From Syntrophotalea acetylenivorans (GTDB lineage Bacteria > Desulfobacterota > Desulfuromonadia > Desulfuromonadales > Syntrophotaleaceae), in the NCBI RefSeq assembly GCF_001887775.1, contig NZ_CP015519.1, positions 744,001-808,000 on the forward strand: a stretch of 64,000 nt of DNA, written 5' to 3'. Positions 28,819 to 49,665 of this stretch are shown here, one piece after another. The first letter of the stretch is position 1; every line of letters starts with the position of its first letter. The notes beneath the pieces were generated by a model. The model saw nothing but the letters and a program-made list of their open reading frames with translations. It was not told the DNA's origin and ran no database searches. The position numbers were made by a program, and so were the translations under genes.

Positions 28819-29114
28819 TGTTGCCACCTCTCCTTAAATTTAATGCCCAAAAAACCCGCGTTATCATTGCACCCGGATTCGCTGGATAAACTTTTTGGCA
28901 GATGCTGTAACGACATGTACCAATCGAAACAGGTAATCGTCAAGATCCCGATGAACAATATAATTCGTCAACTGCTCGCCGTCAATGGCCCAGGCCATTC
29001 TATGCATCTCAAACCTTCTATTCGGCTTCCGCAAAAAAATCCTGCCCGGTCAAGGGCAGGATCACAGATGCGTACAGCGCCATGTAGAACCTCTAGATAT
29101 TTCTGGTCTTAACC
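28819..29114. other. gap between zinc-ribbon gene and the upstream repeat
   Basis: Short open frames here lack ribosome sites and do not look like protein. The one clear element is the minus-strand terminator at 29039-29062. The stretch 28843-29030 probably carries the promoter of the small zinc-ribbon genes; I see no convincing -35/-10 pair. Confidence 0.5.
29039..29062 (-). terminator. rho-independent terminator for the DUF4242 gene
   Basis: On the minus strand, ATCCTGCCC and GGGCAGGAT form a 9-bp stem with a 6-base loop followed directly by a run of T. It lies beyond the repeat element that follows the DUF4242 stop, so the transcript of that gene would include the whole repeat. Confidence 0.85.
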
Positions 29115-29269
29115 TTGATGCATTCGTGAAAACTCACAGGATGGCTAAGCAAAATTTTTGCCCTACAAGGTTTGGTGTTTTTTCAGGGGTGAAGGCATAC
29201 ATCTCGTATATCGAGGCCCTAAAAACACATTGTAACTCCGTAGAGCGAACTTTTTTGCGACGCCATCAA
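29115..29269. repeat. 155-bp inverted-repeat intergenic element, copy A
   Basis: It begins TTGATGC and ends, on the other strand, TTGATGGCGTCGC, so the ends are imperfect inverted repeats. It aligns over its whole length with the element at 48193-48346, sharing CTAAGCAAAA, TACAAGG, TTTTTCAGGGG, GGCATACA and the end TTTTTGCGACGCCATCAA. A central ATAC/GTAT dyad is kept in both. It carries no open frame or transposase and resembles a MITE or REP-like element. Its right end supplies the TGA stop of the DUF4242 gene. Confidence 0.85.
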
Positions 29270-29541
29270 CCTTCAGCGGTAATCGGACTGATGACGGTCT
29301 TAACTTCGGCAACGCTGTTCGCAGGGAAGCCACCCTGCTGAGCATGCTCTACAACCATCTCTGCATTAGGGGCAATATAGATACAATAAATCTTGTCAGC
29401 GGTCACATAGCTTTCAACCCATTGAATCTGAGGGCCGAGGCCTTCCAAAACACCACAGGACTTTTGGGAAATAGCCTTGAAATCTTCAGCTGTCAGGTCC
29501 CCAGCTCCGGGAATTTCGCGTTCAATTACGTATTTAGGCAT
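29266..29541 (-). CDS. DUF4242 domain protein
   Basis: A 91-residue ferredoxin-fold-like small protein of the DUF4242 family, starting MPKYVIEREIPGAGDL and containing IQWVESYVTADKIYCIYIAP, both typical. A related Streptomyces protein binds nickel, but a metal role here is not shown. The length is complete for the family. The stop codon TGA is formed by the first bases of the adjoining repeat element. A ribosome site (AAAGGGG) precedes the ATG. It stands alone between the small zinc-ribbon genes and the addAB-like operon. Confidence 0.85.
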   Translation of the reverse strand: MPKYVIEREIPGAGDLTAEDFKAISQKSCGVLEGLGPQIQWVESYVTADKIYCIYIAPNAEMVVEHAQQGGFPANSVAEVKTVISPITAEG

Positions 29542-48150: not shown

Positions 48151-48192
48151 AAACAACTCCCTGCAACTGCGTTTGAAACGGACAAATCAAAG

Positions 48193-49665
<1,473 letters not shown>

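Follow-up and report, generated by a model that had tools for sequence, protein, structure and literature searches.

Two copies of a repeat of ~150 bp lie in the 64,000-nucleotide stretch of the Syntrophotalea acetylenivorans chromosome analysed here (contig NZ_CP015519.1, positions 744,001 to 808,000; hereafter the window), and each of them begins exactly at the stop codon of a gene. We interpret this repeat, with a rough probability of 0.78, as a non-autonomous hairpin transposon of Desulfuromonadales resembling a miniature inverted-repeat transposable element (MITE), which recognizes the target TC-AANNTT|GA, enters existing stop codons at T|RA with TGA being rebuilt, and is oriented with the replication fork in this genome. 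The element has a 129-nt hairpin core, a tail of ~22 nt and inverted ends, and it duplicates 6 bp of its target. Because the preferred target contains TGA, about one copy in three lies exactly in the stop codon of a gene.

Insertion into existing stop codons

To learn what stood at these sites before insertion, eight relatives were searched for 12 of the 34 stop-type sites, a set picked mostly for the clarity of its repeats, and 40 of the 67 matched places were read; orthologue codons were projected gap-free from the flank alignment, over up to 7 nt where the alignment fell short. Seven of the 40 loci carry the element and 33 lack a full copy, and in 31 of these 33 element-free or shrunken orthologues the stop lies at the same codon, which bears out an earlier sequence-based note on this DNA in its suggestion that the protein C-terminus is left intact. 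Included in the 31 are L245 and L258, orthologues of the sites 2445135 and 2210413 in the same-genus genome G002, which are shrunken remnants whose hairpin is gone and whose stop-giving TGATGG end is kept. Same-genus empty loci have TAA at 773140 (two loci), 141278 (two) and 1453320 (three), where this genome has TGA, indicating that GA comes from the element. When the empty site was restored in silico, the stop was regained at 0 nt in nine of ten non-tandem stop copies with repeats of at least 5 nt, the exception being 2676296.

Same-codon stops in the orthologues, with TAA at some sites, imply that the element enters a pre-existing stop. As read from these sequences, it inserts at T|RA and its own first bases, GA, rebuild TGA, so that the protein is unchanged. 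The earlier note had proposed that the repeat supplies the stop codon; this is true of its last two bases (GA), but the stop itself existed before the insertion. Use of the same stop within unrelated sequence by element-free orthologues had been named there as a finding that would speak against the proposal, and it is literally what was found; the idea of a TTGA context stands, while the stop is pre-existing.

Target site and duplication

The target was examined in 162 copies from six genomes by searching for a 6-mer before GATGG that recurs after the tail (19-27 nt), with at most one mismatch. Such a duplication is present in 98 of the 162 copies (27 at stops and 71 elsewhere), compared with a mean of 15.3 in shuffles pairing ends across copies, which means that some of the 98 are due to chance. 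The 6-bp duplication is exact and at the expected place in 60 of the 162 copies (shuffled mean 1.6), and in this genome exact repeats of at least 6 nt flank 25 of 81 copies, against 3.6 expected.

The pre-insertion target derived from the 71 non-stop copies is the palindromic TC-AANNTT-GA. Its base counts out of 71 are A 50, A 42, T 44 and T 61 (the last base of the repeat), followed by G 42 and A 37, and the flanking bases before the repeat are weaker (T 32 and C 26). The right half of the motif is stronger than the left.

Copies at stop codons compared with chance

The analysis took in flanks of about 3 kb to the left and right of the copies, and genes were called by a dicodon scorer trained on long open reading frames, yielding 545 genes, 65% of them on the leading strand. 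The calls cover 81% of the sampled sequence, and missed genes consequently inflate the intergenic null. A co-directional upstream gene is present for 54 of the 81 copies; its end lies exactly at -4 relative to the element start in 28 of 81 copies and at -4 to 0 in 34 of 81, a spike rather than random distances, and only one of these genes runs deeper into the element (-50). The null was taken from TTRA sites on the strand that runs with the fork in the sampled sequence, with elements masked: 3114 lie in genes, 1038 are intergenic and 60 are at stops. Stops thus make up 60 of 1098 (5.5%) non-disrupting TTRA sites, compared with 28 of 81 copies (p 1e-15), and the coincidence first noticed in two of two window copies is indeed beyond chance.

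The orientation to the gene, earlier described as the same each time, is nearly but not strictly fixed: in 28 copies it is the left end that serves the gene, and two, with gaps of 20 and 21 in the gap table, look like the right end serving a gene on the opposite strand. Right-end stops are fewer than the 31% expected from opposite-strand TTRA stops (p 0.0015), so the two ends of the element seem not to be equivalent, and the stronger right half of the target motif fits this rarity.

Among the 81 copies examined in five other genomes, 15 sit at stops and 13 lie up to 60 nt downstream of one, against 19 and 31 TTRA sites (odds ratio 1.9, p 0.14); compared with all intergenic TTRA sites these genomes are enriched too (15 of 81 versus 20 of 753). 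Stops within -4 to 0 were observed in 5 of 30 copies of G035, 4 of 21 of G050, 1 of 12 of G008, 7 of 12 of G023 and 1 of 6 of G048, as well as in 10 of 30 copies of the same-genus G002. These are the best-scoring copies of each genome, namely 30 of 68 matches in G035, 12 of 34 in G008, 12 of 23 in G023, 6 of 6 in G048, the best 30 of 55 in G002, and 21 of 33 in G050 after 12 opposite-strand self-matches were dropped.

Orientation with the replication fork

Chromosome arms were set by dnaA at 2266513 and a GC-skew switch between 640 and 680 kb. Unexpectedly, the orientation is that of the fork in 71 of the 81 copies, or in 67 of 77 when tandem clusters are merged. TTGA is itself biased 56:44 to the fork strand, and its supply alone predicts 56% fork orientation. 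Ordered by match score, 25 of 25 copies at 140 bits or more agree with the fork, then 24 of 27 and 22 of 29, and local 3-kb skew reproduces the fork map in 80 of 81 copies. The fork is followed in 41 of 44 copies between two leading-strand genes and still in 14 of 18 between two lagging-strand genes (p 0.015), which argues that the orientation is independent of gene direction.

The per-genome counts elsewhere are 17 of 30 in G035, 13 of 21 in G050 (10 of 13 for strong matches), 7 of 12 and 8 of 12 in the two 12-copy genomes and 5 of 6 in G048; weak G050 matches (48-62 bits) may represent another subfamily that dilutes the count of that genome. Same-genus G002 has 22 of 30 copies with the fork, and 13 of 19 among copies unshared with this genome. 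Fork polarity is firm only for this genome. At locus L345 of G002, the right flank matches the site of the copy at 826072 here, and local skew suggests that the L345 element runs against the fork; the two are possibly the same site occupied in opposite orientations.

The two copies in the window and their neighbouring genes

Copies A and B align over ~150 nt and have the same ends, and TGATGGCGTCGC on the minus strand starts at 29268 in copy A and at 48345 in copy B, confirming the claimed junctions at the stops of both genes. The 6-bp direct repeats flanking both copies place the T of the stop within the target duplication in either case and make its GA the opening dinucleotide of the element. 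The features are as follows:

29117 to 29267, minus strand: element copy A, 151 bp, from GATGGCGTCGC... to ...GAATGCATC on the minus strand, hairpin core plus a tail of 22-23 nt
29111 to 29116: distal 6-bp target duplication of copy A, AACCTT on the plus strand (AAGGTT on the minus strand)
29268 to 29273: proximal 6-bp target duplication of copy A, AACCTT on the plus strand; the stop-codon T is at 29268
29266 to 29268, minus strand: hybrid stop TGA at copy A, T from the gene/duplication and GA from the element
29266 to 29541, minus strand: gene ended by copy A, 91-aa PF14026 protein
48195 to 48344, minus strand: element copy B, 150 bp, covariance-model match 792218-792346 (143.5 bits)
48189 to 48194: distal 6-bp target duplication of copy B, AAAGTT on the plus strand (AACTTT on the minus strand)
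48345 to 48350: proximal 6-bp target duplication of copy B, AAAGTT on the plus strand
48343 to 48345, minus strand: hybrid stop TGA of the metY-like gene at copy B
48343 to 49632, minus strand: metY-like gene, 429-aa Cys/Met pyridoxal phosphate (PLP) enzyme, PF01053
47230 to 48150, minus strand: next gene 3' of copy B, cysK-like PLP enzyme, PF00291, 67 nt past the core

Copy A corresponds to the covariance-model match 773140-773269 of the genome contig (127 bits), and the empty same-genus orthologues of its site, L224 and L225, read GAAGGTTAA with the stop TAA. The gene that it ends belongs to PF14026, which we take to be the former DUF4242. Positions 29038-29063, some 50 nt past copy A on the minus strand, hold a terminator-like hairpin that has a run of T (one found versus 0.8 expected in shuffles) and is probably the native terminator of the PF14026 gene.

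Copy B is common to this genome and L031 (Desulfuromonadales bacterium C00003107), the closest named relative by metY (96% identity), and sits at the same metY stop in both. L032 and L033 are without copy B, and the corresponding place ends ATTTGA in L032 and TTGTAA in L033. A frame similar to the cysK-like gene comes after metY in L031, L032 and L033, as judged by eye.

Structure, copy number and distribution of the family

The inverted ends are of the type GATGnnnTCGCAAAAA, with GATGGCGTCGCAAAAA on the left and TTTTTGCGAATGCATC on the right. BLASTN with the element gave 46 matches in the 3.22-Mb genome, and a covariance model built from 30 copies gave 127, of which 81 were kept after 45 opposite-strand palindrome self-matches and a tandem fragment at 2978426 were dropped. 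As 150 of 1379 first-look candidates were scored, the genome holds at least 81 copies. In each of four copies that were folded, the core forms a long hairpin whichever strand is taken, with a single-stranded DNA z of -4.3 for one copy. Paired positions of the stem covary: 96.7% of cells are paired and 22 double changes were counted versus 4.2 in shuffles, which ignore relatedness although the copies form subfamilies.

Distribution of the family is patchy: at least 30 of the 58 genomes searched, including the source genome, have matches at E up to 0.001. Here 59 first-look candidates were scored per genome under stricter filters, and copy and genome counts are lower bounds; under these filters the same-family genomes G005 and G006 gave no model match at E up to 0.001. 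When a 151-nt copy was compared with the plasmid and phage collections in distant mode, nothing matched. A search of five element-bearing loci against Rfam at E up to 1 returned three matches, none of which spans an entire copy of the element: one is a tRNA and the other two fall short of the gathering score, suhB (E 0.3) among them touching the end of the tandem fragment in L005.

Tandem arrays with a period of ~145-153 nt and a shared spacer were observed at 1258517-1258949 (three units), 2409450-2409721 (two) and 3065091-3065362 (two). In the same-genus draft G004, contigs C80, C137, C173, C198, C212 and others carry the element 13-15 nt from the contig end, which suggests that near-identical copies break the assembly. 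At L268 in G035, the right end of the element is followed by the 6-bp duplication and then by an inverted copy of the same right end; no full second element was seen at this locus.

Class of element and candidate mobilizers

The size of ~150 bp, within the limit of ~300 bp for such elements, the number of at least 81 copies, the terminal inverted repeats and the target duplication, seen both as a repeat excess over shuffles and at empty orthologous sites, are those of a MITE. The element is too short to encode a transposase. A search for its ends with at most two mismatches found 79 in the genome versus 5 for a reversed-pattern control, and 12 of the 79 fall outside the 81 kept copies, one being the tandem fragment at 2978426. 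Five of these 12 were read: those at 1263516, 1945529 and 2222056 look like shrunken copies, and those at 1513188 and 2944549 are lone ends. The ISDol1 family, which presumably makes 6-7 bp duplications, would be a candidate mobilizer.

Several known systems resemble the element in part. According to the available portion of PMC3733652, the termini of GTAG repetitive extragenic palindromes (REPs) often supply the stop codon to open reading frames, and GTAG REPs, mostly located downstream of genes, are like the element in this respect. They differ in being 20-40 bp with a GTAG end, whereas the element is 150 bp, provides TGA and has inverted ends GATG..TCGCAAAAA; the 6-bp target duplication and a pre-existing stop, as seen in orthologues, further set the element apart. 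ERIC (~127 bp) and YPAL (~167 bp) are palindromic, MITE-like repeats forming stem-loops near genes, and ERIC at 3' ends can change transcript levels, as described in the parts of PMC2759123 and PMC10969869 consulted. Both have TA duplications and TA ends, unlike the 6-bp AANNTT-like duplication found here, and one gene with an ERIC copy at its 3' end (ECA3499) seems to have lost its usual stop through the repeat and to encode a longer protein (same sources), the opposite of what the element does. The Chunjie element of Geobacter uraniireducens is also a MITE, from a related genus, and is inserted in an operon; at 178-235 bp it is longer, the comparison here covering its size and setting as described in PMC10969869.

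Fork-oriented transposons have been reported as well, including Tn7/TnsE, IS200/IS605 and beta-clamp-binding insertion sequences (excerpt of PMC5371812). Like them, the element tracks the direction of chromosome replication; unlike them, it is without a known transposase, and its polarity is strong here and weak in other genomes. To the extent covered by these excerpts, there are precedents for repeats supplying stops and for fork-oriented transposons. Multicopy, partly palindromic intergenic families are documented in Pelobacter carbinolicus, Geobacter metallireducens and G. bemidjiensis, with no stop-codon or fork pattern described in the available parts of these papers (PMC3543383, PMC2700814, PMC2996986); the element family may be among them, listed without a name. 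A limited search of the literature, which covered MITEs at stop codons or in Geobacter, orientation by the fork, Chunjie, multicopy sequences, and TTGA combined with a target duplication, brought up no account of the element among the papers listed.

Weighing the interpretation

Several observations weigh against insertion of a MITE-like element into existing stops as set out above. No autonomous partner or transposase was found among the five outside end matches read or the unpaired ends in loci read by eye, where no transposase family search of the flanks was made. The orthologues L241 and L242 of site 2628353 read TGG rather than a stop, 16 of the 34 stop copies have no recognizable repeat of at least 4 nt, and 6 of the 18 repeat-bearing stop copies regain a stop only 6-129 nt away. 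The gene calls come from our own dicodon scorer and not from curated annotation. As for the fork, the strand bias of TTGA noted above must be counted here, and orientation is weak elsewhere (50 of 81 by local skew in the five genomes, p 0.02). Finally, this genome has 28 copies at stops and 9 within ~60 nt downstream versus 84 and 176 TTRA sites (odds ratio 6.5, p 6e-7), a 6.5-fold excess that is more than motif and tolerance alone predict.

One alternative, to which we give about even odds, is that a neutral TTGA preference together with the loss of disrupting insertions is a complete explanation, the element having neither stop targeting nor a function. The target motif of the non-stop copies contains TTGA, and the ratio in the five other genomes is not significant, as this alternative would have it; the excess in this genome, and the enrichment of the other genomes over all intergenic TTRA sites, speak against it. 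The suggestion in the earlier note that the element targets stop codons, for example in a TTGA context, is largely correct for the context. In the other genomes motif plus tolerance may be enough, and seeking of stops as such is no more than a possibility, though the excess in this genome is left unexplained. Our reading of the stop bias is that it reflects the motif and the survival of copies, to which this lineage may add a further pull; beyond the TGA-containing target, purifying selection probably does much of the rest.

It is rather unlikely, judging from sequence features, that stop copies were instead kept by positive selection for a 3' hairpin that would stabilize, process or end the mRNA. 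Such selection could account for copies in this genome being more frequent exactly at stops than the TTRA sites nearby would suggest, for the strong folding on both strands and for the double changes in the stem (with relatedness ignored and subfamilies present), and copies of G002 shared with this genome are at stops in 6 of 11 cases versus 4 of 19 for unshared ones (p 0.11). However, a hairpin function needs no exact T|RA placement, the match score, a rough proxy of age, shows no difference between stop and non-stop copies (p 0.91), and copy B sits in a short gap between two same-strand genes. No terminator-like site occurs within copy A or B, and the element was accordingly rejected as a terminator.

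Single-strand mobility of the kind known from REPs and REP-associated tyrosine transposases (RAYTs), in which a Y1 transposase would move the hairpin on the lagging-strand template and so produce the fork orientation, is improbable. Orientation and hairpin do resemble the behaviour of IS200/IS605 (PMC5371812, in the part available), and the genome has one Y1_Tnp gene. Yet this sole, RAYT-like match (1504848-1505171, L193) is flanked in both orientations by a different repeat containing GGGGACACCATACTCATTAG, with which it makes up a probable separate REP-like system, and Y1/RAYT mobility of the element was rejected on this ground. The 129-nt core with GATG ends also far exceeds the 20-40 bp palindromes with a GTAG or CGTC end (PMC3733652, as excerpted). 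In addition, 6-bp target duplications are presumably not expected of Y1 elements.

A gene-calling artefact, in which the element truncates genes and its TGA merely resembles their stop, is very improbable: one third of in-gene insertions would show an in-frame TGA by chance, but the same-codon stop recurs in orthologues at 12 of 12 sites (in one of three orthologues only at 2628353), and a single upstream gene runs on into the element.

Proposed mechanism and significance

Under the preferred reading, that of a MITE-like transposon entering existing stops, a transposase acting in trans would insert the element into TTGA-like sites. Because the element starts with GA, TT|RA at a stop would be among the few sites at a coding boundary where insertion is free of cost; survivors would pile up at stops, and insertions within genes would be lost. 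Insertion may be coupled to the replication fork in this lineage, which would fix the strand. The transcribed hairpin would start directly after the stop, and any effect on the mRNA would be secondary and is unproven. Taken to its full extent, this would be a safe-harbour mobile element, whose target motif and first bases together rebuild the stop and whose insertion is locked to the moving fork, placing tens of copies at gene ends with proteins unaltered; we offer this wider picture tentatively, as a possibility.

This family, documented by orthologous sites that are empty, is a clear example of a bacterial transposon spreading by way of stop codons while proteins stay unchanged, and its choice of target is tied to the genetic code as well as to the replication fork. 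The question whether stop sites are chosen by the transposase or are merely where copies survived becomes testable, and annotators are cautioned that a hairpin at the end of a gene may be an insertion and not a terminator.
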